Source: Candidatus Scalindua arabica (GTDB lineage: Bacteria > Planctomycetota > Brocadiia > Brocadiales > Scalinduaceae). Taken from it: a DNA stretch of 64,000 nucleotides. Below the pieces are notes generated by a model, which saw only the letters and a program-made list of their open reading frames with translations, did no database searches and was not told where the DNA came from. The position numbers and the translations under genes are program-made. Shown piece by piece: positions 29,516 through 62,926 of the stretch (the first letter of the stretch is position 1; the number at the start of each line of letters is the position of its first letter). Location of the stretch: assembly GCA_018263435.1 (NCBI GenBank), contig JAANXD010000073.1, positions 1 to 64,000 on the forward strand, given 5' to 3'.

Positions 29516-29534
29516 TTTGGCACAAAGCTAGCTT
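29516..29534 (+). promoter_or_regulatory. sigma-54 (-24/-12) promoter upstream of fliK
   Basis: TTTGGCACAAAGCTAGCTT; GG-N10-GC. Confidence 0.8.
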
Positions 29535-29760
29535 AATACACAAACATCTTGTTGTCATTTTAAGACTGTGAACGTAACGCAGTTTAAATTGATGGCGCCC
29601 TGAGTATGGCAAAGTAGTGCCTCTAAACAATGGCAAAGCTGCCTCAGGTATGACAGTCGCCCGAGGGCGACCCCAACAGAAGTCCGCCCTGACGGGCTTA
29701 GTGATATGCAAATGTACACCTGGCAGTAAAATTTATTTTTTTAAAATCTATTTATAGAAA

Positions 29761-31602
29761 ATGCCTGAATTGTCCTTAAATTCATTTTTCGGAATGCAGT
29801 CTACAAAAGAGCCGCCTGCAGCAGGTTTACTGAAAACCGGCAACAGCTCCCTGCAAGGTAATCAAAGCAATCACGGTGAAAATAGTTTTCTTGCAAAACT
29901 GGCAGATTCGATGAATAACGAATCTACAACTGAAGACCAAAACTCTACCCTTATTCCATCTGAACTAATTAATATATTAAGTAATGAAGAAATTAATTAC
30001 TTAATTGATTTAGCCTCAATGGGTACATCAACTAACATCGCAACTAACGTTAGTAATGATCAAATGCCATTATATCAATTCTTGAATCATAATATACCAG
30101 TAGAAGCCCTGACAAACGGTATCACCAACAATAATATTAATAACGGTAAGGTGGCTCCTGTACAGACACAGGCAAAAACACTTCCAGGCCACGCACTTAC
30201 AGGCAATCCTCCAGGCAATCAAAGTTCAAGCGCATTGAATGAACCAAACATAGAACTTGCAAAGATTGCACAAGGGACAACCGGAGGCTCGCAACAGGAA
30301 CTGCCGCCAACATCTCTTATAGGCAAATTAAACACAAGTCAAATCAGCTCAAAGACAAATGAACAAAGTGAAACAGGTATCCCAGGCAAACTTAATCCTG
30401 TTAAAATAGCTGACACGACAGGAGATACGCCTCTTCCTCAATCTTCAAAAACTCCGGGTAAACAAATCGCTGAGTCACATAAAGGATCTGACACAGACCA
30501 TGACAACCAGAACAATCAGAACATTGCAAAAATTAATAAACTAAATGCAGCAGGCGTCCTAAACAAACTTAATCCTGTTAAAACTGGTACCACGGCAGGC
30601 GGAGAACCTCCTTCTCAGGCTGCTACAATCCCGGGGACACAAGTCGCTGAGTCACATAAAGGAGCTAACACAAACAGTAACAATCAGAACAATGCAAATG
30701 GAAATAATCAAAACAGAGCGAATAATACAGTCAAACCTGATAATGCCCCAACAATTGATAAAGCAAGTTCCGAACAGACACAACAGGCATCCAAGGCCCA
30801 AGATTCCAACACAAATTCCAGCACAAATTCAGTGTCTCAAAATAATCCAATTTTCGCACAGGCTGACAGTAGTGAATCTCAGAAGATCTTTGACATCCGT
30901 CCGGAGTCTGTCGGAGCAATAGTTTCTAAGTCATCGGACAATACTACAACCCCAATCATAAATTCCGGTGCTAGCAGCGTTAACGCAGACGAAGTATTAT
31001 TACCGTCAAATACATCATCGAATAATTCTTCCTTTAACAACCAGACAGCAGATACCCCTAATGAATCCTACATCAATGCCGTAACCACAAGTCAAAAGGC
31101 TGAACCTGGGAAGGATTTCACCAGCACATTATCACAAATTAATAATTCAACTAAACCTCTTGAATCATTGGGCCGAGACACGGCAGACAATATCGTTCAA
31201 AAGGCAAAGCTGTTTATGGATGGAGGCAAATCCGAAGTAAAAATTCAGCTTAATCCACCGGAACTTGGAACCCTAAAACTTGAATTTGAGGTTGAAGATG
31301 ACAATCTGGAACTGAAGATTAAGGTAGAGAGGTCAGGAGTAAAGGATGTTATTGAAAAGGATATTCCAAGATTGAGAGATCTTCTTTCTAATGCAAATGT
31401 TGATGTAGGCAAGCTTGACGTCTCTCTACAGGAAAAAGAAGAGGAAAGGTTGGGCCAGATGGACAAAGACCTTCAATCAGACTCAGAAAATGATAATACC
31501 AAAGATCTCCAAGACCAGGATAGTGAATCTATCGAGGATAGTATAGAAGAGGAATCTATAGAATATGATAAAGATTCAAACAAAATTAACTTGTTAGCAT
31601 AG
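29761..31602 (+). CDS. fliK: flagellar hook-length control protein
   Basis: N/Q/T-rich linker plus C-terminal KSEVKIQLNPPELGTLKLEFEVEDDNLELKIKVE (FliK C-terminal domain). Confidence 0.85.
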   Translation: MPELSLNSFFGMQSTKEPPAAGLLKTGNSSLQGNQSNHGENSFLAKLADSMNNESTTEDQNSTLIPSELINILSNEEINYLIDLASMGTSTNIATNVSNDQMPLYQFLNHNIPVEALTNGITNNNINNGKVAPVQTQAKTLPGHALTGNPPGNQSSSALNEPNIELAKIAQGTTGGSQQELPPTSLIGKLNTSQISSKTNEQSETGIPGKLNPVKIADTTGDTPLPQSSKTPGKQIAESHKGSDTDHDNQNNQNIAKINKLNAAGVLNKLNPVKTGTTAGGEPPSQAATIPGTQVAESHKGANTNSNNQNNANGNNQNRANNTVKPDNAPTIDKASSEQTQQASKAQDSNTNSSTNSVSQNNPIFAQADSSESQKIFDIRPESVGAIVSKSSDNTTTPIINSGASSVNADEVLLPSNTSSNNSSFNNQTADTPNESYINAVTTSQKAEPGKDFTSTLSQINNSTKPLESLGRDTADNIVQKAKLFMDGGKSEVKIQLNPPELGTLKLEFEVEDDNLELKIKVERSGVKDVIEKDIPRLRDLLSNANVDVGKLDVSLQEKEEERLGQMDKDLQSDSENDNTKDLQDQDSESIEDSIEEESIEYDKDSNKINLLA

Positions 31603-31615
31603 AAAGGAGTTAGAT

Positions 31616-31990
31616 ATGCCCGTTTCCAGCGTAGCCGGCGTTGCCAGCTCGGCAGTCAATAAAGACGAATTTTTAAAACTGTTTGTAGCTCAACTGAAGA
31701 ACCAGAGCCCCCTTGACCCTTTAAAAGGACATGAATTCATAGCACAACTGGCTCAGTTCAGTTCAGTTGAACAGCTTACCAACCTTAATACTTCTTTTGA
31801 AGATGAATTCAAATTTCAACAACTATTAGGAGGAGGTGATCTAATAGGAAGGACTGCCACCTATGTCGATACTGCATTCGGAGGCACTTTCCAGGGAGTA
31901 ATACAAGGCTCCGTAATAAATGACGGAGCAACATCCGTTATAATTGATAACGCGCAGATTCCAATATCCGATATAACAGGAATATCTTAG
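31616..31990 (+). CDS. flgD: flagellar hook assembly protein FlgD
   Basis: DEFLKLFVAQLKNQSPLDPLKGHEFIAQLAQFSSVEQL. Confidence 0.93.
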   Translation: MPVSSVAGVASSAVNKDEFLKLFVAQLKNQSPLDPLKGHEFIAQLAQFSSVEQLTNLNTSFEDEFKFQQLLGGGDLIGRTATYVDTAFGGTFQGVIQGSVINDGATSVIIDNAQIPISDITGIS

Positions 31991-32031
31991 ACAATTAATT
32001 TTTCAAACACTTTTTTAGAAAGGGGTGAACT

Positions 32032-34059
32032 ATGGGTTCATCATCGCTGTTCTCAGGTATATCAGGTTTAAAGTCTTCACAAACATCATTAAATGTAATT
32101 GGAGATAACCTGGCCAACTTAAACACATCTGGTTTCAAGGCATCACGTGTAAGCTTTGCCAATGAATTGACATCGACTCTAAGACCAGCTCTGGCACCAA
32201 CAGGTGGAATCGGCGGAATAAATCCACTGCAGATTGGCAGCGGTACCAGGGTATCAAGTATAGACAGGGATTTCGCTCAGGGAAATTTAACACCTACCGG
32301 ACGTCCACTTGACCTTGCAATACAGGGTGACGGCTTCTTTATTCTTACAGACGGTTTTGAGGATTCTTTCACAAGGGTAGGTGCGTTCAATGTGGATAAA
32401 AACAATGACCTTGTTGACTCAGGTACCGGCCTTAAAGTAAAAAGTGTTTCGGGAAATGCTATAAACATCCCCGTAAACCAGACTTTAGCTGGAAAGGCTA
32501 CAGCTACTACTGATATAAAAGGAAATTTAAACTCTGAATTTACAGCAAACCCGGTTAACCAAGTTATTACGACCTCCACTGCGTATTCAGTAACAGGAAC
32601 CGGGACTACACGTACACTGACCGGTTCAATTGACCCTACCGCATCTACATCAGTCACTGGAGTAGGTACCGCCTTTACAACTGAACTGGCTGTTGGTGAC
32701 AGGATAAACGTTAACGGAGAGATAAGAAAAGTAGCCACAATTACAAACGATACGACACTAACTGTTGAGACGGCTTTTACAGACACCGGTAATGATACGG
32801 CGCTGACAGCTGGTGTTGGCGTACTGACCGGCTCAATTAACCCTGCGGCATCTACAACAGTCACGGGGGTAGGTACCGCCTTTACAACTGAATTGGCTGT
32901 TGGTGATCAGATAACTGTTTCAGGAGAGACAAGGACAATTTCAGCGATTGCATCAAATACGAGTTTAACTGTTTCCGCGGCTTTTTCAGACAACGCTAAT
33001 GATACCAGTGTAATGACTGATTCCATGGCTGTTGTTCTCCTGAATGACCTTTCCGTCAATACAGCAGATTACGTTGCAGGTGACAAGATCAGCGTAGTAG
33101 GTACAGAGCATGATGGCACAGACGTTACCAAATCTTTCGTTTATGGAACGGGAACAGGCCAGGATGGCACAACACTTGGAGACCTTAGAGACTTTGTCAC
33201 AGCTAATTACGGCACTGCAGCTGCATCGATTGACTCAAGCGGCAACATAGTCCTCACAGCAGATCCTCCAGGCGCTTCTAATCTTACGCTGACCTTTTCA
33301 GATGCCGCTGGCAACACCGGAGCTACGACCTTTAACAATTTTGCCACTACTACTACAGGAAGTGGAGACGTATACTCTACTACCATACCGATATTTGATA
33401 CTAAGGGTTCATCTTTCCTGGTTTCCCTTCACTTTGAAAAGACAGCCAGCAATACATGGGATGTAACACCAACCATGAAGGCCTCAGATGGCTCTGTCAC
33501 CGATGCACTTACGGCTATAACCTTTAACACTAACGGCTCATTTGCATCTACTACCGGTACATCAGCCATAACAGTAACCTATAAAGATGGAACCACTCAG
33601 ACAGTAAGCCTTGACTTCGGTGTAGCAAATGCATTCGCCGGTTTAACTCAATTTGGTGGTACCGCGTCTGCCGCAGCAACTGACCAGGATGGCAATGGAG
33701 AAGGTTTCTTTTCGTCAACTACGGTAAACTCAGATGGTAAAGTTGTGGCGCTGTTTACTAACGGAAAAACCCAAGATATAGGCCAGCTTCAACTGGCAAC
33801 CTTCAGCAATCCGGCAGGTTTGACCAGTGAAGGAAACAACGCTTTTAAACCAACCCTGGCATCCGGTGCAGCAACTCTTAAGACTGCTGGTTCAGGCAGG
33901 ACCGGTAGTATTGTCAGCGGTGTCTTAGAGGCTTCTAACGTTGACATCGCAGAAGAATTCACAAAGCTAATCGTTGCTCAGAGAGCCTTTCAGGCAAACG
34001 CACGTACGATAACGACAACTGATGAGGTCCTGCAGGAATTGGTTAATATAGTAAGATAA
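32032..34059 (+). CDS. flgE: flagellar hook protein FlgE
   Basis: SSLFSGISGLKSSQTSLNVIGDNLANLNTSGFKASR; C-terminal EFTKLIVAQRAFQANARTITTTDEVLQELVNIVR. Confidence 0.95.
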   Translation: MGSSSLFSGISGLKSSQTSLNVIGDNLANLNTSGFKASRVSFANELTSTLRPALAPTGGIGGINPLQIGSGTRVSSIDRDFAQGNLTPTGRPLDLAIQGDGFFILTDGFEDSFTRVGAFNVDKNNDLVDSGTGLKVKSVSGNAINIPVNQTLAGKATATTDIKGNLNSEFTANPVNQVITTSTAYSVTGTGTTRTLTGSIDPTASTSVTGVGTAFTTELAVGDRINVNGEIRKVATITNDTTLTVETAFTDTGNDTALTAGVGVLTGSINPAASTTVTGVGTAFTTELAVGDQITVSGETRTISAIASNTSLTVSAAFSDNANDTSVMTDSMAVVLLNDLSVNTADYVAGDKISVVGTEHDGTDVTKSFVYGTGTGQDGTTLGDLRDFVTANYGTAAASIDSSGNIVLTADPPGASNLTLTFSDAAGNTGATTFNNFATTTTGSGDVYSTTIPIFDTKGSSFLVSLHFEKTASNTWDVTPTMKASDGSVTDALTAITFNTNGSFASTTGTSAITVTYKDGTTQTVSLDFGVANAFAGLTQFGGTASAAATDQDGNGEGFFSSTTVNSDGKVVALFTNGKTQDIGQLQLATFSNPAGLTSEGNNAFKPTLASGAATLKTAGSGRTGSIVSGVLEASNVDIAEEFTKLIVAQRAFQANARTITTTDEVLQELVNIVR

Positions 34060-34073
34060 TAAACAATTTTAGA

Positions 34074-34240
34074 TTGTAGATTTCGGATTGCGGATTAATG
34101 TGAATGTGATTTAGTCTCATTTTTTAATACCGCAATCCGAAATCGAAAGATTGCAATGAAACAATGCTCTTCCTTCAAACCCTGAACCCCCGACGCTATT
34201 TCCTTAATTCCGTGATCCGAAATCAGAAATCTGAAATCGC
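34074..34240. repeat. intergenic palindromic repeat (atttcggattgcgga / ccgcaatccgaaat)
   Basis: inverted words atttcggattgcgg ... ccgcaatccgaaat. Confidence 0.6.
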
Positions 34241-34418
34241 ATTGGGAAGGTTTTTCTACAAAACGTGGAAAAATTTATCGTAGATATATAAACAACTCAG
34301 GATTCTAACGAACAACCCTCCTCTCAACCCAATAATAAAATTAATCTAAATTACCAGAATACATAGCATTACAACATTTTAAAAAAATATTTTGATTTAT
34401 TCACTTTAAATTCTTTTT

Positions 34419-34436
34419 CTGGCACAAAGATAGCTT
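34419..34436 (+). promoter_or_regulatory. sigma-54 promoter upstream of flgF-like gene
   Basis: CTGGCACAAAGATAGCTT; GG-N10-GC. Confidence 0.8.
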
Positions 34437-34483
34437 ACGTAAGAACACAACTATTTTAATGAATACTATTAGAAAGGTTAAAC

Positions 34484-35197
34484 ATGATTGACGGAATTGA
34501 ACTGGCAGCCTCAGGACAGGAATCTTATGCCAATGTACAGGAAGTCATAGCTAGAAATCTTGCAAATGCCAACACGATCGGCTTTAAAAAGAATACTATC
34601 TCTTTCAAAACCGTTCTATCAGGTACTGAAGGGTCACAAACCAGCACCCTTCAGACGGATTACGGCGTTGATCAATCTAAGGGTGCTCTTACTCATACAA
34701 GCAACAGCTTAGACATGGCCATAGACGGTGATGGTTTTTTTACTCTGGAGACAGAAAAAGGCATGAGATATACGAGGAATGGACAATTCCAACTTTCAAC
34801 CAATAGTGAAATAATAACCGACAGCGGTGCAAAATTAATAGGACAGAACGGCCCGGTAAAGATCCCAAATGGCGCCGTGGAAATAATTATAAATAGCAAT
34901 GGGACTGTTAAGGTAGATGGCAAAGAGATAGGAAGACTGATAATTACTAATTTTACAGACCTTAATAAACTTGTCCCGACAGGTGACTCAACGTTTGCAG
35001 CGCCTATAGAAGCTATAAACAATGATGGAAATGCAAAATTCAGAGTTGCACAGGGCTACCTGGAAAGATCTAACGTAAATGTTGTTATGGAAATGGTTGA
35101 TATGATAACCAATATGCGGAGTTATGAAGCAAGCAACAATGTCATAAAGACATTTAGTGACTTAATGGAGCGTTTAACCAGCGCTCAAGCATTATAA
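34484..35197 (+). CDS. flgF: flagellar basal-body rod protein FlgF-like
   Basis: NLANANTIGFKK; AIDGDGFFTLETEKGMRYTRNGQF; upstream of flgG. Confidence 0.88.
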   Translation: MIDGIELAASGQESYANVQEVIARNLANANTIGFKKNTISFKTVLSGTEGSQTSTLQTDYGVDQSKGALTHTSNSLDMAIDGDGFFTLETEKGMRYTRNGQFQLSTNSEIITDSGAKLIGQNGPVKIPNGAVEIIINSNGTVKVDGKEIGRLIITNFTDLNKLVPTGDSTFAAPIEAINNDGNAKFRVAQGYLERSNVNVVMEMVDMITNMRSYEASNNVIKTFSDLMERLTSAQAL

Positions 35198-35255
35198 TAA
35201 AATACAATAGAATCAGTTTAATACTTAAACTAATTTAATTAAGGAGACAAGAATC

Positions 35256-36041
35256 ATGATGAAAGCATTGTATACAAGTGCAACAGGAATGAAGGCACAC
35301 CAGTTCCTCCTGGATGTTATATCAAACAATTTAGCCAATGTTAATACTACAGGTTTTAAACGATCACAGATTAATTTTCAGGATCTGCTATATGATAAAT
35401 TTGTACCCGCAGGTTCAGAGGCTGCTCAAGGGATAGAAGCGCCAACCGGTTTGCAGGTTGGTAGCGGAGTCCGTGTTGTATCAACCAATAAGGTATTTAC
35501 TCAAGGCGTAGCTGAAAATACGAACAGAACACTGGACCTGGCCATACAGGGGAAAGGTTTCTTTCAGATAAAACACCCTGATGGAACAAATGTATACTCA
35601 CGAGATGGCACCTTTCATCTTAACAGTGCCGGAGAGGTGGTAAACTCTGAAGGCCTGAAACTTGAACCATCAATCTCAATTACAGGCGATGTAATAGGAA
35701 TCAATATTGGATCAGACGGAACAGTTTCGACCCAAAGCTCAACCGGGGCAAGCCAATCTACAGGCACAATAACCCTTGCGACATTCCCTAACCCGGCAGG
35801 TCTGGAAAGCATGGGGAAAAATCTTTACAGGGAAACAACTGCATCAGGTACCGCTACAACAGGAACACCGGGACAGACCGGAATTGGGGAGATTATGCAG
35901 GGATTTCGTGAAAGCTCAAATGTGGAGGTTGTAACTGAATTGGTAAACCTCATAGTCGCACAAAGGGCATACGAAACAAGCTCCAGGGCAATTAAAGCTA
36001 GTGACGACATGTTACAAACGACAAACCGTATTACAGCATAA
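35256..36041 (+). CDS. flgG: flagellar basal-body rod protein FlgG
   Basis: ALYTSATGMKAHQFLLDVISNNLANVNTTGFKRSQINFQDLLY. Confidence 0.95.
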   Translation: MMKALYTSATGMKAHQFLLDVISNNLANVNTTGFKRSQINFQDLLYDKFVPAGSEAAQGIEAPTGLQVGSGVRVVSTNKVFTQGVAENTNRTLDLAIQGKGFFQIKHPDGTNVYSRDGTFHLNSAGEVVNSEGLKLEPSISITGDVIGINIGSDGTVSTQSSTGASQSTGTITLATFPNPAGLESMGKNLYRETTASGTATTGTPGQTGIGEIMQGFRESSNVEVVTELVNLIVAQRAYETSSRAIKASDDMLQTTNRITA

Positions 36042-36085
36042 TAAATAATATGAATCTTCACACTTTGTACAAAAGGAGAGCAACA

Positions 36086-37087
36086 ATGAAAGCCAGAATA
36101 TCTTTGATTCTTATTCTAAGCACATTCATATTGATACCTGACATTTCAGCCAGCCCACCAGTGCCGTTGGCACAGCAGACAGGCAAGATTGAAGTAAGTT
36201 TAATAGACAATGTTGTACTGGAAGCCAAAACCATCACATTCAGCGACATCTCTACTGTGACCGGTGATGATGTAGAACTGGTAAACAGAATCAATAACAT
36301 TGAGATTGGAAAGACACCATGGGCAAATAGTCTCAGAACGATAAATAAAGATTTTTTGAAAATGCGTTTGAATGCTTCAAACGTTAATGTATCGGATGTA
36401 AGCTTTACCGATACCAGTACAGTAACTGTTTCAGTCGAATCAACAAAGGTAACCGGCCTGGAGATTTCACAAAAAGCCAAGAAATATTTATTAAGCGTTC
36501 TGCCTGTAGCAGACAGAGAAACTACTATAGAACTGGCAAGGTTACCAGGTGATCAATGGATACCAAGTAAAAGAGATAAAATTAATTTTTACGTTTCACT
36601 TGTTGACTCAAGCAAAGACAGGGGAAAAATTGAAGTAATCGTCACTGCATCCTCAAACGGTATGAGATATTTCAAGATACCGGTTCACTTTAATGTCAGG
36701 GTTTTTGAATATGTCGCAATTACAAAGAGGAAATTGTCTCGCAGCCAGCAATTAACAAAAGGAAACGTATTTATGGCCAGAAGGGAAACTACAAAAATAC
36801 GCGGACTGGCCTTTTCCGACAGAAAGCATCTGGCAGGCAAGACTGCAGCCGTATCAATACTGCCATATACTATACTTACTGAGAATATGGTTGAGACGCC
36901 CCCAACAATAAGACGAGGCAGTGTAGTAAAGCTATTTATTATGTCAAGCGGCTTTGAAATTGTTACCAAGGGGCTGGCACAACAAACCGGATACGCAGGT
37001 GAAGTCATAAAAGTAAAGAACCTGGATTCAAAAAAAATACTTTATGGTGAGATTATAGATTCGGACAGAGTCCAGATAACATTCTAA
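36086..37087 (+). CDS. flgA: flagellar basal body P-ring formation protein FlgA
   Basis: SAF-like C-terminus (KRKLSRSQQLTKGNVFMARRETTKIRG...); AGGAG before ATG at 36086. Confidence 0.9.
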   Translation: MKARISLILILSTFILIPDISASPPVPLAQQTGKIEVSLIDNVVLEAKTITFSDISTVTGDDVELVNRINNIEIGKTPWANSLRTINKDFLKMRLNASNVNVSDVSFTDTSTVTVSVESTKVTGLEISQKAKKYLLSVLPVADRETTIELARLPGDQWIPSKRDKINFYVSLVDSSKDRGKIEVIVTASSNGMRYFKIPVHFNVRVFEYVAITKRKLSRSQQLTKGNVFMARRETTKIRGLAFSDRKHLAGKTAAVSILPYTILTENMVETPPTIRRGSVVKLFIMSSGFEIVTKGLAQQTGYAGEVIKVKNLDSKKILYGEIIDSDRVQITF

Positions 37088-37197
37088 TCCCCACTCTTTC
37101 CCCTTTCTAAAAGGGAGAGAAAGAGGAATTAAAACTCTTTTACTGAGATAGAATAAGCAGGATTTAATTAAATCTCTTATTGTACAAAGGAACAAAA

Positions 37198-37863
37198 ATG
37201 ACAAATTTTTCCAGATACCTTATGTTTAAACTCTTTCTAACTGTAAGTATCATTACTGTGTTATATGATTGCGCCATTGCAGATTCGTTATGGCAGAAAA
37301 GGGTTAGCGTAAACTATAACCTCTTCGATGATAATAGAGCCAGAAGGATCGGAGACCTTGTTACCATAACTATATCAGAAAAAACTACTATTGATAATTC
37401 TGAAGAATCCACCACCGATAATACCAGCACAGTTACCGGTTCACGAGACAATGATAAATTCTTTCGTGGGATGTGGAGCGGAATAAGAAATGGACGTAAT
37501 GCAAGGTTCGATGACAGAACAGCCAATGCTTTCTCTAATGCCTATTCAGATGATTTCGATGGTAAAGGGACTTATGACAGTTCCAGGATTGTAAAGGATA
37601 TTACTATGACAGCAATGGTAGTGGAGGTGCTTGATAACGGTAACCTTGTCCTTGAAGGCAAAAGAAATGTAAAAGTAAACAAAGAACAATATACCTTGAA
37701 ACTCACAGGTATTGCCAGACCTATCGACATAAGTACAGACAACATAATAGCGTCAGAAAAAATGTCTAATGTAAAATTTGGACTTGATGGGAAAGGCTGG
37801 CTTACCAGGGCAGGGAAAAAGGGCTGGTTCAACAGATTGAAGGATTTGTTCTGGCCATACTAA
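37198..37863 (+). CDS. flgH: flagellar L-ring protein FlgH
   Basis: RARRIGDLVTITISEKTTIDN; LVLEGKRNVKVNKEQYTLKLTGIARPIDIS. Confidence 0.93.
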   Translation: MTNFSRYLMFKLFLTVSIITVLYDCAIADSLWQKRVSVNYNLFDDNRARRIGDLVTITISEKTTIDNSEESTTDNTSTVTGSRDNDKFFRGMWSGIRNGRNARFDDRTANAFSNAYSDDFDGKGTYDSSRIVKDITMTAMVVEVLDNGNLVLEGKRNVKVNKEQYTLKLTGIARPIDISTDNIIASEKMSNVKFGLDGKGWLTRAGKKGWFNRLKDLFWPY

Positions 37864-37940: not shown

Positions 37941-38090
37941 ATCTATTATCAAAAACATCTCAGTAGGAAAAAATAGACATCATGTGTAAATATTTACTGC
38001 CTAATCTCCTGACTTGCAGAAACACACAATCCAACAGCCTTATAAGTCACTCCTATATAAAGCCTTAACGCTAGCCAGATTTAATATGTT

Positions 38091-38108
38091 TTTGGTATAA
38101 ATATTGCT
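38091..38108 (+). promoter_or_regulatory. sigma-54 promoter upstream of flgI
   Basis: TTTGGTATAAATATTGCTTA; GG-N10-GC. Confidence 0.7.
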
Positions 38109-38335: not shown

Positions 38336-38387
38336 GCTTGTCTGGGTTATGATGTAATAGTATAAACCATGTTTGAGGAATAAACCT

Positions 38388-39515
38388 ATGTTTCGTTATT
38401 TGTTAAGCATTATCATTTTAATTTCAACTTGTTTTATCTCACCAATTACTCCTGTACACGGAAGTATAACCACACGCGTTAAAGATATTGCATACGTACA
38501 GGGTGTTAGAGATAACTTCTTATTCGGTTATGGACTCGTGATCGGGCTATCGGGATCAGGGGACGGAAACGATACTAAATTTACAAGAAGTCTGGCAAAG
38601 AACGTTTTCGAGAAACTAGGCATAATTATAACGGCAGATGATTTTACCTCAAAAAATATTGCAGGTGTCCTGATTACCGCAAACATCCGCCCATTTGCCA
38701 AGCCCGGAGACAAAATGGACGTACTCGTATCATCAATAGGTAACGCAAAAAGCCTGGAAGGTGGCGTTCTTGTTCACACTACACTTCAGGGAGTGGACAA
38801 TGAGGTCTATGCAGTTGCACAGGGCCCTATATCCCTCGGAGGCGGTTTTGATGTCGGAGGGAAGGCGGCTGATAAGAGAAAAAACATTGCAACCACAGGT
38901 AATATACCTAAGGGAGCACTGATTGAAAAGGAAATACCTGTTCATCTTTTTCATGAAAACTCAATAATGTTAAGTCTGAATAACAGCGACTTTACTACAT
39001 CACTTCGTTTAATGGAGATTATCAACGTAATATATCCTGATTCTGCACAAGCCGTAAACGCTGGAGAAGTAAGAATTAAACCTCCACAGGAATTCAGAAC
39101 AATGGACAAGATAACGCAATTTATCTCTGCGATAGAAGAACTGCCCATAACTCCTGATGCTGTAGCCAGGGTCGTGATCAACGAGAGAACGGGTACAATA
39201 GTTGCCGGAGAAAACGTCAAGATTTCCACTGTAGCAGTTGCACATGGCAGCCTCACAATAACGATAAGTGAGAAGACAGAGGCATCTCAGCCCGGCTCGT
39301 TTGCTCCATCCAGTGCAGTAACCAAGGAACTGGACCGTACAACCATCGACATCGAAGAAGATGAGGCAAAACTACACGTTATACCGGATGGTGTAAGTAT
39401 TTCTGAAATAGCACGCGCATTAAACGTTCTTGGCGTGACACCAAGAGATCTTATGGCAATCTTTCAAGCAATACATAGAGCCGGTGCACTTCATGCAGAT
39501 CTCATAATTATGTAA
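38388..39515 (+). CDS. flgI: flagellar P-ring protein FlgI
   Basis: RVKDIAYVQGVRDNFLFGYGLVIGLSGSGDG; NERTGTIVAGENVKIS; ATG at 38388 behind GAGG. Confidence 0.95.
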   Translation: MFRYLLSIIILISTCFISPITPVHGSITTRVKDIAYVQGVRDNFLFGYGLVIGLSGSGDGNDTKFTRSLAKNVFEKLGIIITADDFTSKNIAGVLITANIRPFAKPGDKMDVLVSSIGNAKSLEGGVLVHTTLQGVDNEVYAVAQGPISLGGGFDVGGKAADKRKNIATTGNIPKGALIEKEIPVHLFHENSIMLSLNNSDFTTSLRLMEIINVIYPDSAQAVNAGEVRIKPPQEFRTMDKITQFISAIEELPITPDAVARVVINERTGTIVAGENVKISTVAVAHGSLTITISEKTEASQPGSFAPSSAVTKELDRTTIDIEEDEAKLHVIPDGVSISEIARALNVLGVTPRDLMAIFQAIHRAGALHADLIIM

Positions 39516-39543
39516 CAATTTGTAACCTGACCAGGAAAACTAA

Positions 39544-39861
39544 ATGGAAGTACCTTTTATAAACACTGATTCTTTAATAAATATTGCAAAGGCTGAAAGC
39601 TCAAAAAACAGTATTAAAAACGGGGCTAAATCGGAACATGAAATTCAAAAGGCCGCACAGGATTTTGAAGCCGTAATGCTGAACATGGTGATCAAAGCAA
39701 TGTGGAAGACTATACCTAAATCCGAACTATTTGAGCAGAATAACGCGACACAGATATATGAAGGTATCATGCATACTTCACTTTCGGAAGAGATGGCAAA
39801 GAATGGCGGTATGGGTATAGCAAAGGTGCTTTATCAACAGCTCAGTAAAGAACAGAAATAA
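39544..39861 (+). CDS. flgJ: rod-binding protein, FlgJ N-terminal domain
   Basis: AAQDFEAVMLNMVIKAMWKTIPKSELFE...YEGIMHTSLSEEMAKNGGMGIAK. Confidence 0.88.
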   Translation: MEVPFINTDSLINIAKAESSKNSIKNGAKSEHEIQKAAQDFEAVMLNMVIKAMWKTIPKSELFEQNNATQIYEGIMHTSLSEEMAKNGGMGIAKVLYQQLSKEQK

Positions 39862-39891
39862 TCATAATCTTAATAAATGGGGTAGAATACC

Positions 39892-40392
39892 TTGGAAGAT
39901 CTGTTAGAGAACCTTTCTGAAGCATTAGACAAAATGACTAATACGTATAGAGATATACTCCATACTGCACAGGAAAAGAAGGAACATATAATTTCCGGAG
40001 ACATAGACAAACTCGAATCAATCATTTACCAGGAACGCAACTTGGCAGAGAGGGTCCTTCTTGCTGAAGAAAAGAGAAGGTACGTCCTGCACTCAATTAA
40101 TCAGACACTGGGAAATAGTACCGAATCTATAAAACTTAATGATCTCATAGAGCAGATCAAAGAACCTTATAAAAGCAAACTAAAGGAACAGTATGACGTT
40201 CTTATCGAGGTGATTTCAGAAGTTGAGGCAATTAATAAGGTCAATACGTCACTTACAAAATATTCACTTGAATATGTAAATAATCTTATAAGATCCATAT
40301 GTTCCGAGTCGCTTAACGACTCTACATATCAACTATCAGGCAAATTAAAGGAGCCTGAACTTAATAGAATGTTATTTGATATAAGTGCTTAA
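39892..40392 (+). CDS. flgN: flagellar chaperone FlgN-like
   Basis: helical 166 aa ORF between flgJ and flgK, FlgN-like heptads. Confidence 0.75.
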   Translation: MEDLLENLSEALDKMTNTYRDILHTAQEKKEHIISGDIDKLESIIYQERNLAERVLLAEEKRRYVLHSINQTLGNSTESIKLNDLIEQIKEPYKSKLKEQYDVLIEVISEVEAINKVNTSLTKYSLEYVNNLIRSICSESLNDSTYQLSGKLKEPELNRMLFDISA

Positions 40393-40427
40393 ATTCTTTC
40401 AGTTAAACCTTATGTAGAAGATAAAAA

Positions 40428-42593: not shown

Positions 42594-42611
42594 TAAAAGG
42601 AGTGTTTAAAT

Positions 42612-43514: not shown

Positions 43515-43639
43515 ATATCTTTACTTTACCTCTATCTTAATTAGGGCAAGAGAGAGGATTAAATTTTACAACATTTTTTAAAGGTGTAGATTTCGGTGGA
43601 AGATGGTAATTAAGAGCATCTATCTATTGAGGTCTACTG

Positions 43640-44080
43640 TTGAGAGACATGTTATTAAAAACACATTTGTTTGGTGAAATTAATGTTGAAGAAGAGGAAG
43701 TTATCAACTTCACAAAGCCTATTTTAGGTTTTGACGATTGTACGCAATATGTCCTGGTGGAGAAAGAATCTATATTCCCCACATTCTGGCTGCAATCTGT
43801 CAACAATCCCGGGCTGGCATTCCCAGTTGTATCTCCGTTCTCTGTTAACGAAGATTATTCTATCAAACTACAGAACCATGATCTTGACGATATTCGACTG
43901 AAGGATATTAATGATATTCTTGTTATGACACTCATGGTTGTACCACAGGTCTTGTCATCAATCAGGACGAATTTACGCGCCCCGATTATTTATAATCCTG
44001 TAAATAAGGTAGCAAAACAACTTGTTCTATACGACGATAAGTATCCGGTACATTACTACATAATGGATAATACAAATTAA
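43640..44080 (+). CDS. fliW: flagellar assembly factor FliW
   Basis: GEINVEEEEVINFTKPILGFDD...NLRAPIIYNPVNKVAKQLVL; ATG alternative at 43649. Confidence 0.92.
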   Translation: MRDMLLKTHLFGEINVEEEEVINFTKPILGFDDCTQYVLVEKESIFPTFWLQSVNNPGLAFPVVSPFSVNEDYSIKLQNHDLDDIRLKDINDILVMTLMVVPQVLSSIRTNLRAPIIYNPVNKVAKQLVLYDDKYPVHYYIMDNTN

Positions 44081-44118
44081 TTTGAAGATACTCAGGCATA
44101 TAACCAGGAAGGTGACAA

Positions 44119-45974: not shown

Positions 45975-45985
45975 TTGAATAAGAT

Positions 45986-53036: not shown

Positions 53037-53063
53037 AATTATTATGAGAGAAGGATAATCCCA

Positions 53064-53816
53064 ATGGAATTTAGCAAAACAGGATACCAGACATTACTGG
53101 AAACTGCTTTGGATGCAGGTTACAGGTTTATACATTTTGATAATACCTTGCACTTAAAACAAGGTAAATGCTGCCTTCTTCGGCATGATGTGGATGTGGA
53201 CATTGGCGCTGCTCTGGAAATTGCAAAGGTTGAATCTGTCTTAGGTATCCGTTCTACTTTTTTCCTTATGTTGAGGTCGCCTCTTTATAATCTTATGGGA
53301 AGATCAAATAGTCGAATTGTTCAGGAGATTGTACATTTGGGACACCGGATAGGCTTACATTACGATGATGGATTCTGTCTGGATAAGCGGTATTCTCTTG
53401 AGGAATGGATATGTCTAGAATCGAGAATCCTCGAAAAAATGTTTGGAGTAGAAATCAAAGCAGTATCTTTTCATCAGCCGAGCCAGGCCATTTTGTCTGG
53501 AAAAATGAAACTTAATAATTATGTAAATACATATAATAAAAAAGAGCTTGATGGTTTTTACTATGTTTCTGATTCTAATAAAGTTTGGAAAGTTGAAAAC
53601 CCGTATAATATTTTCCAAAAAGAACTTTACAGCAAAGTACATCTTTTAATCCATCCTCTATGGTGGATTGGAGACTATAATTTGCCAACTGAGGATGTCT
53701 GGGAGCAAATGATCGTGTCTAATTTCTATCGTTCACAAAAGCAGCTTTTAGAAACCGAAAGAGCATATGGACATGCCAGGGAAATCACAATATCAAAGAC
53801 ATCAGTATGCTGTTAG
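53064..53816 (+). CDS. polysaccharide deacetylase-like protein
   Basis: LLRHDVDVDIGAALEIAKVESVLGIRSTFFLML...HRIGLHYDDGF. Confidence 0.65.
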   Translation: MEFSKTGYQTLLETALDAGYRFIHFDNTLHLKQGKCCLLRHDVDVDIGAALEIAKVESVLGIRSTFFLMLRSPLYNLMGRSNSRIVQEIVHLGHRIGLHYDDGFCLDKRYSLEEWICLESRILEKMFGVEIKAVSFHQPSQAILSGKMKLNNYVNTYNKKELDGFYYVSDSNKVWKVENPYNIFQKELYSKVHLLIHPLWWIGDYNLPTEDVWEQMIVSNFYRSQKQLLETERAYGHAREITISKTSVCC

Positions 53817-53833
53817 ATTGAAGGTATGAGATA

Positions 53834-54727
53834 ATGAAAAAAATTGTTATGTGTGGGAGCCATACAGGAGGCGCCCCTGCCATTCGTTCCCTTTTGTCAG
53901 AAGGTTATCAATTCCAGTACTTTGTATGTTTAACGCCAGAACAATCTGAAAGGTACTGCATTTCAGGATATTACGACTATAGTGAAATAGCAAGAGATTA
54001 TGGAATCCCTGTTTATCACCCAGAAACATATTCTTTAAAATCAAAGGAAGATGAGAAGTTCTTTAAGGATAACAAATTTGACCTTCTTATTCAGGGAGGG
54101 TGGCAAAGATTGTTTCCGGAAAATATTTTAGCAGCATTGACCATTGGTGCAATAGGCATTCACGGAAGTTCAGACTTCCTTCCAAAGGGAAGAGGCCGTT
54201 CACCTCTGAATTGGTCTCTTATTGAAGACAAGAAACGATTCATTATGCACTTATTCCTCATCAAATCGGGTGTTGACGATGGTGATGTATTTGATTTTAC
54301 AACTTTTGACATTAATGAATTCGATGATATTGAAACACTTTATTTTAAATATGCCATCGTCTACAAGAAACTAATGCTAAGATCTCTTCCCGGGCTTTTA
54401 CAAGGTAGTTTTACTGCTTTTCCTCAAAACGGAGAACCAAGTTACTATGCCAGGAGAACTCAGTCTGATGGTTTAATTGATTGGGAAACCATGGATGTAT
54501 GGCAAATTTATAATTTTACCAGAGCACAAACCAAACCCTATCCGGGAGCTTATGCTTTTATGAATGGGAAGAAATATACTATCTGGAAATGCCGCATATT
54601 TGACACAAGATTAACTTATAAGAAAGCACAATACGGAGAATGTGTTGAAGAATTTGAGGGGAAAATGATAATTAATTGTCGTGGAGGCTTATTACTCCTG
54701 GACGAATTTGAAGTATGTGAGGATTGA
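53834..54727 (+). CDS. formyltransferase family protein (ArnA N-terminal/Fmt-like)
   Basis: GIHGSSDFLPKGRGRSPLNWSLIEDKKRFIMHLFLIKSGVDDGDV. Confidence 0.85.
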   Translation: MKKIVMCGSHTGGAPAIRSLLSEGYQFQYFVCLTPEQSERYCISGYYDYSEIARDYGIPVYHPETYSLKSKEDEKFFKDNKFDLLIQGGWQRLFPENILAALTIGAIGIHGSSDFLPKGRGRSPLNWSLIEDKKRFIMHLFLIKSGVDDGDVFDFTTFDINEFDDIETLYFKYAIVYKKLMLRSLPGLLQGSFTAFPQNGEPSYYARRTQSDGLIDWETMDVWQIYNFTRAQTKPYPGAYAFMNGKKYTIWKCRIFDTRLTYKKAQYGECVEEFEGKMIINCRGGLLLLDEFEVCED

Positions 54728-56664: not shown

Positions 56665-57170
56665 ATTTTCAACAATCCATAATAATTTCAAGGCAACAAT
56701 TTGCTTTATTATATAAGAGAGAATATTGATATCAAGGGAAAACAGACAAGAGAGTATTAACACTACCGCTATTAAGGTCATATGGTTAGTATCGTCAATG
56801 GTCACTCGGATTCTATCATGCACATTCGCTGTTCTATAATGTGACAATTTTCAATCAAAAAAAGCAAGAAATTGTCGACTTATGGACTAAAACAAGTGAG
56901 GTCTTCTTACGAGCTTTTCTCCACCCCATCCCCCAATTGGTTACTAAGCACAACATTTCTTCGGTTCACCCTGTCCCAATCAGTTTTTTTAGTTGCTGAA
57001 ATGAAGTCAAAGAAGTTTTTACCCGACAAATGTTGAAATATTTTCCGGAGAGAATAACTAGAAAAAGCATACTAATATTTCTTTGTATACTTGTTGTCGA
57101 TAACCCTAATTATTACAACTGGTTACCAGGTTTTTATATTATGAAGCAAAATTTTAATGTAGAACTATTC

Positions 57171-57188
57171 TTGGCATAACTTTAGCGC
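57171..57188 (+). promoter_or_regulatory. sigma-54 promoter upstream of GT-TPR gene
   Basis: TTGGCATAACTTTAGCGCT; GG-N10-GC. Confidence 0.75.
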
Positions 57189-57461: not shown

Positions 57462-59291
57462 ATGAATATTAAAGATGATACAAGAATATCTGATAATTTA
57501 TTAATTGTAAATGCAGTTGCCATGCAGACCTCCGGTGTAGGTGACTATGTCTATCGGGTGGAGCAGCCCTCAATTGCCATGGGCAAGGCCCCCGGAGTAA
57601 CAGTTATCAATGTCAGCACCATATCTCCTTACTTTGAAGTTCTATGCCTGCAGGCAGACGTTCTTATCTTGCACCTTCTGACAGAGCATGATTTGTTACC
57701 AATCATAGAAAAGCGAAAACAAAGAAACCTTGCAACAGTTTACGAAATATCAGATAACTTTGCGGCGATTCGACCTGATGGTGGGACGAAGAACTGGTTC
57801 AGTGACCCGGTAAATATGGCTTCAGCTATACAACTCATAAAGATGGCAGATGCCGCTCAGGTAACCGGAGAAGGCCTTCTGGAGAGATTGGGTGCTTTAA
57901 ATCCCAATATTGAGATCTTTGAGAATCAAATCAGTGAACTTGGTGAATACAGAGAGAGAACATCATCCGATTCTATTGTGATCGGCTGGGGCGGTTCATC
58001 AGGACACACCGAAGACCTGAACTATATAAAGCAATCTATTGTTGATATCTGCTCCAAATATCCCGATGTGCGTTTTTCTTTCATGGGAGATAAAGAGCAG
58101 TTTGTCAATATTTTCTCGTGCATCCCTGATGAGCGGAAGATTTATACGCCTCCCAGCACACTCAGGGATTATTTATGTTTTCTGGAAACACTGGATATTG
58201 GAATTGCAACGATGCTGGACACACCGTTTAACCATTGCCGTTCTGATATAAAATTTGTGGAATACGCCTCCAGAGGCGTGGTTCCCGTCCTTTCAGCTAT
58301 AACCCCGTACAAAAAACATGCTGTTCACGGGTCAAATGCCTTTCTATTTGATAACAATAACAAACTCAAGGCCATACTGGAAAACCTTATACAGGACTAC
58401 ACACTGCGAAAGGAAGTTTCCAGAAATGCCTATGATTATGTCAAAAGCCACCGTATGGAAGATCAACATACAGAAAAAAGAGTCGAATATTATAAGAACA
58501 TTTGCAGAGAGAAAACCGTTAAAAATCTCAAGGCGCTCAAACTTACCAGGTTAAGCCAGACAAGCGAAGCATACGATGTGGAGAAAACCAATGCAGAGGT
58601 TTTCCTCCGTAAGGGCGTAGCAAATGAGGCAAAAGGTAACACCACGGATGCAAGATTTTTGTACACAAAAGCGCACGAGCTTATGCCAGGTTATTATCTT
58701 CCACTTTTCTGGCTAGGCTATAGCTATATGAGGCATAACGACGAGGAGATGGCTATAGAGTTTTTTAATCGTACCATAGAAAAGAACCCACGTTCTGTCA
58801 GGTCTTTGCTTTATCTGGGCAATATTCTTGAATGGAGAGAGGAGAAAATGGCGTTACAATCTTACAAAGCGGCATCTTCCATATCACCATCCTATGCACC
58901 ATCCATAGAAGCAATTGCGCTGTTTTATGAAAATAAAGGAAACTATACAAAGGCAGTAGCATTCTACAACCATGCGCTTGAAGCAAATCCATTTTATAGT
59001 AAGGCCATCTGGAGCCTCGGTAGAGTATATGCAACCATTGAAGAAAAAGAAAAAGCGCTCAACGCTTTCAGAATTGCAGCCGATATGGCTCCATTGCATA
59101 AGGAATATCAGTTAGATCTGGCAGAGCATCTTTTTGAGGCAGGCAGTATCAAAGAATCGGCAAAATATTGCCTGAAGGCATTGGAGATTGATAAAAGCCA
59201 TACTCCGACACGTATCCTAATGAATAATATTATTAAGCTAAACAATGCACAGGTCTCAAAATCAGCCGACTCTTTTGAAAATATAGTGTAA
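57462..59291 (+). CDS. glycosyltransferase with C-terminal TPRs
   Basis: GWGGSSGHTEDLNYI, KFVEYASRGVVPVLSAITPYKKHAVHGSNAFLF; TPRs AIALFYENKGNYTKAVAFYNHALEANPFYSKAIWSLGRVY. Confidence 0.8.
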   Translation: MNIKDDTRISDNLLIVNAVAMQTSGVGDYVYRVEQPSIAMGKAPGVTVINVSTISPYFEVLCLQADVLILHLLTEHDLLPIIEKRKQRNLATVYEISDNFAAIRPDGGTKNWFSDPVNMASAIQLIKMADAAQVTGEGLLERLGALNPNIEIFENQISELGEYRERTSSDSIVIGWGGSSGHTEDLNYIKQSIVDICSKYPDVRFSFMGDKEQFVNIFSCIPDERKIYTPPSTLRDYLCFLETLDIGIATMLDTPFNHCRSDIKFVEYASRGVVPVLSAITPYKKHAVHGSNAFLFDNNNKLKAILENLIQDYTLRKEVSRNAYDYVKSHRMEDQHTEKRVEYYKNICREKTVKNLKALKLTRLSQTSEAYDVEKTNAEVFLRKGVANEAKGNTTDARFLYTKAHELMPGYYLPLFWLGYSYMRHNDEEMAIEFFNRTIEKNPRSVRSLLYLGNILEWREEKMALQSYKAASSISPSYAPSIEAIALFYENKGNYTKAVAFYNHALEANPFYSKAIWSLGRVYATIEEKEKALNAFRIAADMAPLHKEYQLDLAEHLFEAGSIKESAKYCLKALEIDKSHTPTRILMNNIIKLNNAQVSKSADSFENIV

Positions 59292-59319
59292 ACGTAACAA
59301 CATACAAGGATGTGTTTAG

Positions 59320-59571: not shown

Positions 59572-60599
59572 AAGCAGAATATGTAATCTTCTCTATTCTC
59601 TCTCCGATACCTTTTTGTTTTCTTCTTTGTATACTTACACGCAAGGCAGCTTTATTCACTGCGCTTAAACTTACTCCAAATACCTCTCCAATCGTTTTAT
59701 TCTTCAACCCTGTATACATTTTTAATATATACATACCAACATCTCTGGCTTCAAACGATATATGCCTCTTTCTTTGTAATAACGTTGACTTTTCTATTCT
59801 ATAATTACGTATTACCTCTTCTATTACCCTGTCAATCACCCCATCATCACTTATTCTCTTTTTTTGTGGTAAATCTTCGTCCCTTTTCTCTTTTCGATCT
59901 ATAAACTTCTTTTGCAACCAACCCACAAACTTGTCATCTCCCAGGATCATTCCATACCTTACATCAGCCAGAAAATCCTCTTCCTTACCGGATACTTCCC
60001 AAATTAATTTCCTATATTCTTTTCTCGAATCTTGTTTATTTCTACCGAAACCATCCAATACAGCTTCACTATTTACCCATTTATGTACTTTCCTGTTACT
60101 AACATAATCGTGATAGCTGCTCCACTTATACTTACTCAGTTTCTCAATTATACCAGCTCTTAGTGGATTTAAATGTATATAGAAACTTAACATATGCAAA
60201 TAAGATTCTTCTCCAACAACAATGCTCTTGTATCTCCCCTGAAACAGGTGACCACAACGTTTATGCTCACGATTGTAATAAGTACTATAAGCGGTCTGTA
60301 TCCATTGCATGGTCCTGGAAAGATTTGGCTCATTTGTTCGTATAAGCATATGATAATGATTACTCATCAAAACAAATGCAAATATATCTAAACCAAACTT
60401 CTCTCTAGCTTTTTCTATGTATTCTAAAAATCTGGAATAATCTTCATTAGTAAGAAAGATTTTTCCCCTACCAACACCTCTTGACATTATGTGATAGATT
60501 GCACCTTCATATTGTATTCTCCAGGGCCGTGCCATAATCCACATTGTTAATCAAATATTGTAGCTTGTCAAGCACTTTCTGCTTTCAAGGTCTGACCCC
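59557..60599 (-). mobile_element. RAYT unit with perfect 21-bp terminal inverted repeats
   Basis: GGGGTCAGACCTTGAAAGCAG (59557-59577) / CTGCTTTCAAGGTCTGACCCC (60579-60599). Confidence 0.9.
59561..60544 (-). CDS. REP-associated tyrosine transposase (Y1/HUH, IS200-like)
   Basis: ARPWRIQYEGAIYHIMSRGVGRG; HUH motif MSNHYHMLI; Tyr region WIQTAYSTYYNR. Confidence 0.93.
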   Translation of the reverse strand: MWIMARPWRIQYEGAIYHIMSRGVGRGKIFLTNEDYSRFLEYIEKAREKFGLDIFAFVLMSNHYHMLIRTNEPNLSRTMQWIQTAYSTYYNREHKRCGHLFQGRYKSIVVGEESYLHMLSFYIHLNPLRAGIIEKLSKYKWSSYHDYVSNRKVHKWVNSEAVLDGFGRNKQDSRKEYRKLIWEVSGKEEDFLADVRYGMILGDDKFVGWLQKKFIDRKEKRDEDLPQKKRISDDGVIDRVIEEVIRNYRIEKSTLLQRKRHISFEARDVGMYILKMYTGLKNKTIGEVFGVSLSAVNKAALRVSIQRRKQKGIGERIEKITYSAFKV

Positions 60600-61756
60600 T
60601 TTTTCTCCACTACCTCAACAAACTTTTCAGCACATCTCTTCCACGTGAGCCCTTCCAGGTCTTTTCCTGCCTGTGACCCGTACGATCTCAATTTATCCCT
60701 GTTCCGGTAAGCCCATTCCAGATGTTCAATCGTTTCATCTAAATCCGGATCATACCATGTCGCAATCTGCGTCCCGCTTCCATCATTAAGACATATTGAT
60801 TCCATCTTCTTTATCATAATCGAATTGTCCTCATTGATAACATCCTTATGGCCGCTACTGTATGATGCAATTACCGGTTTACCGCACGCCATATATTCCA
60901 TGAGGACAAGATTTGTACCCCCCTCACATCTATTCGGAAACAGTCCAATATCACTGTTCTTGTATATTCTTGCCATCAGTGCATTAGGACGGGGAACCAG
61001 GGTAATAACCCTCTCTAAATCCAGGCCATTATTCTGAAGAATCTTGTTCATTATCGTAATATAATCTCCGGATGAAATATCGAACTTGATGTATGGTGAA
61101 GCCGCCATGGTTTTCATGCTGTCTGCCCAGGCATTAAACCACGAATTTACGAGCACAACGTCCTTATGCCTGTCCTGCAGAACTTTATATGCCTTTATCA
61201 CAATGTCCTGCCCCTTGCGCAATTCGAATTTACCGCCTGAAAAGATTACAAATTGATCCCTGAAAAGTTCTTTCTCTGAATGATATGGATTAAATATCTG
61301 CGGGTCTGTTCCCTGTATTATGGTAGTTACGTTTTCAAGCCCATGGTTTCGAAGAACCTCCTCACACCATGTGGACCCCGCAACCACAATGTCATAGTTA
61401 TCTCTCCCATTCTGAATATATTCCTGAGAGAGTATGTTCTCCTCAAAGAACGTATACCCTGCCTTGAAGGTACCCTTTAAGTTTGGACCAGTGGGCAGTA
61501 GTGTTATATTGTCCATAGCCTGCAGAATCGGATAATCCACCTGCTTAATCACACCGTCTTTAATTTCCTTGTCTTCCGCCTCTCCGATTAATTGACTTTT
61601 AAGGAAATAGTAATCGAGTTCATCACCAATATCTCCAACACCAAACTTTTCTGCAATATATTTTACCTCTGTTATAGCGGACATCTCCTTAACGAGATAC
61701 TTGCCGCAAACACCCCATCCAAAATTATTACCCCTGGGTAGAATTAGATAAATCAT
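60551..61756 (-). CDS. glycosyltransferase family 1; C-terminus encoded by RAYT end
   Basis: VFSGGKFELRKGQDIVIKAYK, IGLFPNRCEGGTNLVLMEYMACGKPVIAS. Confidence 0.88.
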   Translation of the reverse strand: MIYLILPRGNNFGWGVCGKYLVKEMSAITEVKYIAEKFGVGDIGDELDYYFLKSQLIGEAEDKEIKDGVIKQVDYPILQAMDNITLLPTGPNLKGTFKAGYTFFEENILSQEYIQNGRDNYDIVVAGSTWCEEVLRNHGLENVTTIIQGTDPQIFNPYHSEKELFRDQFVIFSGGKFELRKGQDIVIKAYKVLQDRHKDVVLVNSWFNAWADSMKTMAASPYIKFDISSGDYITIMNKILQNNGLDLERVITLVPRPNALMARIYKNSDIGLFPNRCEGGTNLVLMEYMACGKPVIASYSSGHKDVINEDNSIMIKKMESICLNDGSGTQIATWYDPDLDETIEHLEWAYRNRDKLRSYGSQAGKDLEGLTWKRCAEKFVEVVEKKGSDLESRKCLTSYNI

Positions 61757-61758
61757 TA

Positions 61759-62415
61759 TTATATACCAACTCTTTCAGAAAGTTCGGGTTTTCTGCCAAG
61801 CCTTATTTCCATCGCCTGATCCAGCATCTCAACCGCTTTAACCATTTGGCCCTTCAGGATTTGCATATTCCGCGTCTGCTTTCTTTTGACAACCTCCGGA
61901 TCAGAATAACCGGTATGTAATACCATAATATCAGTAAAGTGTGTTTTATAGCCAACCTCCTGGAGTGAAGGTAATACCTGTTCATGTACCTTGTTTCTGA
62001 AACGTATCCTCTGGTCCCTGGGAAACATCCTGATCTGGTTGAAAACTGTGCCAAGTATTCCATCCAGAGAATTTTTAATTATAAAACTGAAGCAGCAGTT
62101 TAAATCATATCCATCCTTTACCTCTCTTACTTTCTCACAGTTATCCTCTGTGATAATGTCATCCGCATCGGTCCAGAGTATCCAGTCAGATGTTGCTTTT
62201 TCAAGAGATGTATTTCTTGAATACGAGAAATCACCCTTCCAGGGATGATATGACACTTTCGCTCCAAACTGCTCCGCAACATGAATACTATTATCCGTTG
62301 AGCCGGTATCAACAACGATAATCTCATCTACTAGTTCACGATAGGATTAAAGACAACTCTTTAGATTGTCTGCTTCATCCCTGGCAATAATACATAGTGA
62401 AATTGTCTTTGGCAT
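61759..62415 (-). pseudogene. glycosyltransferase family 2 with in-frame TAA
   Basis: MPKTISLCIIARDEADNLKSCL*SYRELVDEIIVVDTGSTDNS; stop at 62347-62349; continues open to 61759. Confidence 0.8.
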
Positions 62416-62908
62416 TGTAACTACCCCATATACTCTGGTTTATTTAATTTTTATCTCTAGAAGTGAATTTCGCAAAATGTATGCCAGCTAATATAGACCG
62501 ACAATAATGCACAGATGCCAGGGGGCAGCCACAAATATACTATGGCAACTCACCCACCTGTCTCCCCCCCCCTGTTTCTTTTAACGGCTATCGGTATTTG
62601 CCCTCTAAACTACTTCAACTAAACAATAAAGAGGAAATAACCATCCATACATTTAATACCTTTGTCGCTACTTCCCCTTAATAATTGTCTTTAAATAGTT
62701 CAAATAAAAAAAATTTATAACAGGTATATACAATATAAGAGACCAGCAACGAAATTTTACAACTACAGATGTTTAAATATTATACATGAACAATAGGAGG
62801 AAATGCATACTGGAGCACCAGCATATGAACACTGCGCATAAGCCTATACATTGTACTATGTTACATCAAACAGCACATACAAATAAATACATAAATGAGT
62901 GATTGTCT

Positions 62909-62926
62909 TTGGCATGAGTTTAGCGA
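62909..62926 (+). promoter_or_regulatory. sigma-54 promoter upstream of OGT-like TPR gene
   Basis: TTTGGCATGAGTTTAGCGAT; GG-N10-GC. Confidence 0.75.

Follow-up and report, generated by a model that had tools for sequence, protein, structure and literature searches.

Are flagellar assembly and glycosylation placed under one sigma factor in an anammox bacterium? This question is raised by the first 64,000 nucleotides of contig JAANXD010000073.1 of Candidatus Scalindua arabica (hereafter the window), in which GG-N10-GC matches resembling the -24/-12 promoters of sigma-54 (RpoN) precede both flagellar hook/rod genes and genes for glycan synthesis. A first-pass annotation of the window had proposed that flagellar glycosylation, or alternatively a surface-glycan programme, is co-timed with flagellar assembly through RpoN. 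On the basis of our results, flagellar glycosylation is supported by the presence of rpoN and of a flagellum-linked activator, a density of sites above that of shuffled DNA, the conservation of the sites and an island with flagellar genes on one side and fliC on the other. The proposal needs amending on two points. The four genes described as non-flagellar are indeed preceded by the sites, but the flagellar locus includes them, as part of an island extending from csrA to fliC, and the sites before glycosylation genes make up a separate sub-class. Overall, we assign a probability of roughly 0.77 to the reading that the locus carries a sigma-54-dependent middle class which includes flagellin-glycosylation genes and would be expressed before the filament.

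According to this model, the eight sites of the locus would be RpoN promoters of the middle class of flagellar expression, driving the hook/rod genes together with the interleaved island, which would make sugar-nucleotide enzymes, TPR-bearing glycosyltransferases and OGT-like enzymes. The likeliest activator would be a two-component pair linked to flgB (a PAS kinase and a receiver-AAA+-Fis protein), acting at dyads 100-180 bp upstream. Flagellin would follow later, from a promoter of the sigma-28 type, and the glycosylation enzymes would thus be ready as it appears. We infer transcription from the sites, the identity of the activator and flagellin as the target of the glycan. The genome (2.69 Mb in 102 contigs) contains one rpoN, whose RpoN box reads ARRTVTKYR. 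A 690-residue protein aligns end to end with the beta and gamma subunits of hydrazine synthase (E = 1e-156 and 9e-187), which identifies the organism as an anammox planctomycete; the beta-gamma fusion is a trait of Scalindua.

Conserved -24/-12 sites before flagellar and glycan genes

All seven sites of the first-pass annotation were recovered, by direct reading and with a -24/-12 matrix, at most 1 nt from where it had placed them. They are intergenic, lie on the plus strand and face the named genes, and the proposed distance of about 50-280 nt to a plus-strand start codon was measured as 49-275 nt from the GC. In these sites, the GG and GC are separated by 10 bp within a YTGGCAC-N5-TTGC context, as is required of a sigma-54-dependent promoter. 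Three precede flagellar genes: fliK (TGGCACAAAGCTAGC, 29518-29532; kept in five relatives), flgF (TGGCACAAAGATAGC, 34420-34434; 13 relatives) and flgI (TGGTATAAATATTGC, 38093-38107; seven relatives). The other four are located between csrA and a transglutaminase-like gene (AGGCATGGTTTTAGC, 44682-44696; position shared by seven relatives), upstream of a TPR-glycosyltransferase gene (AGGCATAAGTTTAGC, 48311-48325; a similar site precedes the TPR-glycosyltransferase gene of relative G014), upstream of a GT-TPR gene, in which the glycosyltransferase (GT) domain comes first (TGGCATAACTTTAGC, 57172-57186; kept at the ortholog in relative G009, 86% identical), and upstream of an OGT-like gene starting at 63091 (TGGCATGAGTTTAGC, 62910-62924; identical at the G009 ortholog). 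Two further sites, absent from the first-pass annotation, were found on the minus strand. One, TGGCATACATTTTGC (62472-62486), was detected with the matrix and is kept in G009; it diverges from the site at 62910 and lies upstream of minus-strand glycosyltransferase genes, one of which has an in-frame stop and an ATG about 57 nt from the site. The other, TGGCATGAATATTGC at 21166, is followed after 66 nt by a DUF6941 gene and is the top-scoring -24/-12 match of the window.

Conservation in relatives, whose regions around flgI were scanned, is the strongest support for the sites. Flagellar sites recur before fliK, flgF and flgI (TGGCAYAAAGATAGC, TGGTAYAAATATTGC), and also before fliD and fliS, with orthologous sites in up to 13 relatives, compared with seven for the glycosylation sites. 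In these seven, AGGCATGRTTTTAGC and near forms follow csrA and precede a transglutaminase-like or TPR gene. Site cores were 87-100% identical in most aligned pairs, whereas their flanks were 54-75% identical; weaker pairs were those of fliD (80% in the core) and GT2 (87% versus 75% in the flank). We regard it as practically certain that the seven sites are real and as very probable that they serve as sigma-54 promoters.

A tighter form, WGGCATRNNTTTAGC, with TTTAGC at -12, is common to the glycosylation sites, whereas the flagellar sites have ATAGC or ATTGC. Two patterns of the TTTAGC class, which were picked after viewing the window sites so that own-genome matches are not independent, gave 31 matches in 17 genomes of the family versus 6 for reversed-pattern controls. 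Thirty of these (versus 5 reversed) fell in the 13 flagellated genomes. The four genomes without flgI and fliC had 1 match versus 1, where 5.9 would be expected at the flagellated rate (p = 0.02). These four retain rpoN; thus, the loss of sites tracks the flagellum and not the sigma factor, and the family offers a natural experiment in which non-flagellated members keep rpoN without the sites. Loss of flagellar genes has been reported for Scalindua of oxygen-deficient zones (PMC11104535). Downstream of TTTAGC-class sites in relatives there are mostly glycan genes, including, as named by eye, a nucleotidyltransferase with a GHMP-type kinase, a YdcF-like protein, Gfo/Idh proteins and OGT-like enzymes.

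Upstream dyads and the candidate activator

The genome encodes 13 full-length enhancer-binding proteins. One of them, a receiver-AAA+-HTH_8 protein by Pfam, lies with a PAS-HisKA kinase on C59 immediately 5' of flgB-flgC, in the order kinase, activator, a -24/-12 site (TGGTATAAGTTTTGC), flgB and flgC. Its GAFTGA loop reads GSFTGA. Such an arrangement is what would be expected of a flagellar pair of the FlrBC or FlgSR kind.

Searching for k-mers on either side of the sites of this genome revealed nothing beyond shuffles. With relatives included, Gibbs sampling of 36 upstream regions found a joint motif of 9.57 bits, compared with 7.0-7.3 bits in shuffles. Its TGTGNAAAAATT form is located at -102 to -110 of flgI, fliD and fliS and at -156 of flgF, and its TGTTGAAATATTATACA form, a 17-mer occurring in the window more often than expected, at about -134 to -153 of glycosylation promoters. 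When one mismatch is allowed, copies of the dyad GGAAAN2-3TTTCC precede fliK, flgB, the transglutaminase-like gene, the GT-TPR gene and several genes of relatives, and [GC]TTAC clusters around position -54 in 11 of the 22 promoters of the glycosylation class. Candidate activator dyads of the window, all on the plus strand, lie upstream of fliK (GGAAATATTTTTCC, 29338-29351), flgF (GGAAGGTTTTTCT and CGTGGAAAAATTTATCG, 34245-34280), flgI (TGTGTAAATATTTACTG, 37983-37999), the transglutaminase-like gene (AGAAAACTTTTCC and TGTTGAAAATCTATGCA, 44509-44546), the TPR-glycosyltransferase gene (TGTCGAAATATTATACA, 48159-48175), the GT-TPR gene (TGTTGAAATATTTTCCG, 57031-57047) and the OGT-like gene (TGTTTAAATATTATACA, 62770-62786).

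The occurrence of dyads in both gene sets suggests a common or related activator, and we somewhat favor a single activator serving both; since the glycosylation sites are a sub-class with TTTAGC and a distinct upstream motif, this is likely and not proven. It is also conceivable, if only tentatively, that the locus contains two sigma-54 sub-regulons with different activators, the two sets being co-located and not strictly co-timed. The -12 sub-consensus, the upstream words and their distances all differ between the sets, and 13 activators are available in the genome; however, the dyad shared by both sets, the excess of the joint motif over shuffles and the co-occurrence of the sites with flagella across genomes argue against such a division.

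The promoter at 62910 (window positions 62680-63110) and the one of a coiled-coil gene on C65 (L017:5225-5650) share homology across about 400 bp, including dyads and leader, which implies that the promoter was copied as a cassette. A search of the window against Rfam yielded a tRNA only, and the conserved 62910 leader matched no known RNA element.

The island between csrA and fliC

In two relatives, G007 and G016, one contig each carries flg genes, csrA, glycan genes, fliC and fliD, followed in G007 by fliS. The contig of the window ends inside a GT2-TPR gene and has an exact 97-bp end overlap with a contig that reaches fliC 1.2 kb later; because the overlap falls in a repeated gene, the join is very likely but not certain. 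The fliC promoter, TAAA-N15-GCCGATAA, is of the sigma-28 type, and fliD and fliS have -24/-12 sites that are kept in relatives. At the sequence level, hook/rod and glycosylation genes thus carry a -24/-12 promoter and flagellin a sigma-28-type one. Flagellin is probably the acceptor of the glycan.

The surface-glycan programme that the first-pass annotation had offered as its alternative was judged less likely than flagellin glycosylation. The sites would then be real sigma-54 promoters, and the island would make a cell-surface or capsule glycan, with locus and sigma factor reflecting joint control of the cell exterior. Sigma-54 has been broadly tied to exopolysaccharide, lipopolysaccharide and flagella (PMC3162934), some TTTAGC-class sites precede genes beyond the flagellar locus, and paralogs of the transglutaminase-like gene are found throughout the order. 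We consider this explanation improbable, however, given that csrA and fliC bound the island in relatives, that no polysaccharide polymerase or export gene was recognised in it, that strong matches to the TPR domain are confined to flagellated relatives and that the sites vanish where flagella are absent.

The TPR-glycosyltransferase at 48542 has an N-terminal TPR domain and is linked genetically to flagellin genes. Its residues 4-119 share 57-71% identity with proteins encoded in the flagellar gene clusters of relatives. By contrast, its C-terminal part shows no BLAST similarity to those of eight full-length relatives, which resemble one another, matches none of the solved structures and has a match to Glyco_trans_1_2 below the cut-off (E = 0.006). 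A scan of the genome contigs with this protein found no relative. Single-sequence folding predicted confident helices for residues 2-116, and the model of the glycosyltransferase part was poor and uninterpretable. The sequence comparisons show that the module behind the conserved TPR domain has been swapped. Flagellin is bound by the TPR domain of Caulobacter FlmG, whose C-terminal domain is a glycosyltransferase (PMC7591256); by analogy only, this scheme would supply a mechanism for the 48542 protein. A TPR-docked, exchangeable glycosyltransferase would point to diversification of the flagellar glycan in an environmental bacterium. It is a more speculative idea, and one we hold to be doubtful, that a dedicated activator reads the glycosylation sub-class (WGGCATRNNTTTAGC with the TGTTGAAATATTATACA dyad, on the cassette of about 400 bp found also at C65) and serves a modular flagellin decoration in which the TPR dock is kept and glycosyltransferase domains are swapped between species. 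If so, a slow-growing anammox bacterium would be diversifying its flagellar glycan.

It should be noted that several results weigh against a common middle class of flagellar and glycosylation genes. The upstream motifs of the two sets differ (TGTGNAAAAATT versus TGTTGAAATATTATACA), and cross-scans of the two matrices were individually weak (p mostly 0.03-0.2). The motifs were found post hoc, and their p-values are therefore optimistic. The G009 ortholog of the 48542 gene has no counterpart of the site at 48311. Assignment as glycosyltransferases was sub-threshold for two proteins. TTTAGC-class sites also occur outside flagellar loci, before a formate-dehydrogenase-like gene, an HD-GYP gene and the C65 coiled-coil protein, and the class is therefore not restricted to the flagellum. 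Finally, the -24/-12 matrix is an approximation, and the conservation tests therefore carry more weight.

With regard to numbers, the loose consensus with three mismatches allowed showed no excess in the whole window (70 matches versus 66.7 expected), and counting alone is therefore no support for the claim. When intergenic DNA was scanned with the matrix, nine matches scored at least as high as the weakest of the seven, namely the seven, 21166(-) and 62486(-), and all nine face a downstream gene; in 40 Markov shuffles of intergenic DNA, the mean was 1.1 and the maximum 4. Across the genome, where the evidence consists of pattern searches with reversed-pattern controls, TGGYAYN5TWGCT matched exactly at 15 places, of which 14 are intergenic and 3 lie in the window, and GGCATRASTTTAGC at 5, of which 3 are on the contig of the window (binomial p = 2e-4). 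A chance origin of the matches in AT-rich intergenic DNA, for which the lack of a whole-window excess speaks, is very improbable in view of the intergenic enrichment, the conservation and the reversed-pattern controls, and was ruled out for the set as a whole; single sites, above all that at 48311, could still be non-functional.

RpoN control of flagellin glycosylation is already known from a few distant bacteria; what is new here is the phylum, and the TTTAGC sub-class and the swapped glycosyltransferase module merit attention. In Xanthomonas oryzae, RpoN2 and FleQ control the gigX flagellin-glycosylation island (PMC8657755). As in the present locus, sigma-54 serves flagellar structure genes and a glycosylation island within the flagellar cluster, and flagellin is sigma-28 dependent. 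However, that system belongs to another phylum, uses a FleQ-type activator where we propose one with a receiver domain, and has fliD and fliS under FliA, whereas here they have -24/-12 sites. The RpoN-FlgSR middle class of Helicobacter and Campylobacter (PMC3930126) likewise combines rod, hook, FliK and flagellin-glycosylation enzymes and has a kinase with a response-regulator activator, but FlgR acts without DNA binding, whereas the activator here retains a Fis-type helix-turn-helix and the upstream dyads are conserved. The RpoN-dependent jhp0106 (PMC5368276) lies within the flaB operon and has no promoter of its own, unlike the glycosylation genes here. FlmG (PMC7591256), likened by its layout of an N-terminal TPR followed by a putative glycosyltransferase domain and by its link to flagellin glycosylation, differs in that its genes are CtrA-controlled; here, the TPR domain is retained and the glycosyltransferase domain departs from those of all relatives. 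Control of the cell exterior by sigma-54 has also been discussed as a general theme (PMC3162934). In the literature library that was searched, no paper pairing Scalindua with sigma-54 addressed this subject, judging by titles and abstracts, and the functionality of the flagella of anammox planctomycetes has been stated to be unclear (PMC11104535). Our results would extend sigma-54 timing of flagellin glycosylation to these organisms, with a testable promoter code.

Genes of the locus and other -24/-12-like matches

The flagellar part of the window, on the plus strand, comprises fliK, flgD, flgE, flgF, flgG, flgA and flgH (29761-37863; FliK by Pfam, the others by order, sequence and orthologs), and flgI, a flgJ-like rod protein gene, flgN, flgK, flgL, fliW and csrA (38373-44412). 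After csrA come the transglutaminase-like (LapG-like) protein (44904-45974), a weak assignment (Transglut_core, E = 0.011; LapG-type structure 4fgo, E = 0.036), and a fused Gfo/Idh/MocA dehydrogenase and hexapeptide acetyltransferase for sugar-nucleotide synthesis (45986-47701). The TPR-glycosyltransferase (48542-50146) is followed by radical SAM/SPASM, asparagine-synthase-like, unknown and formyltransferase-like genes (50274-54727), whose role is probably sugar modification, and by the GT-B-like glycosyltransferase with C-terminal TPRs (57462-59291; Glycos_transf_1, E = 5e-4), all on the plus strand. A GT4 glycosyltransferase gene and the broken GT2 gene occupy 60551-62415 on the minus strand. 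The in-frame stop of the latter is near its N-terminus (62256-62415, minus strand), yet its promoter is kept in G009. The OGT-like TPR protein (667 aa, with a C-terminal GT9-like domain) starts on the plus strand at 63091 and extends beyond the window end at 64000.

Among other matches, the TTTAGC-class site at L016:4627 (C12:18626) is 119 nt before the gene of a formate-dehydrogenase-like molybdopterin enzyme. Sites close to HD-GYP-type genes, at L020 (C41:28276, minus strand) and L184:12382 (minus strand), raise a possible link between cyclic di-GMP and the regulon. Tandem -24/-12-like sites at 23394(-) and 23482(-) precede a glutamate-synthase-domain gene (23282-21702), and two similar ones precede its G009 ortholog, for which NtrC-type nitrogen control is possible. 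Finally, a -24/-12 match, TGGTATCTCTTTTGC, was found 66 nt before groEL at L188 (C21:55700).

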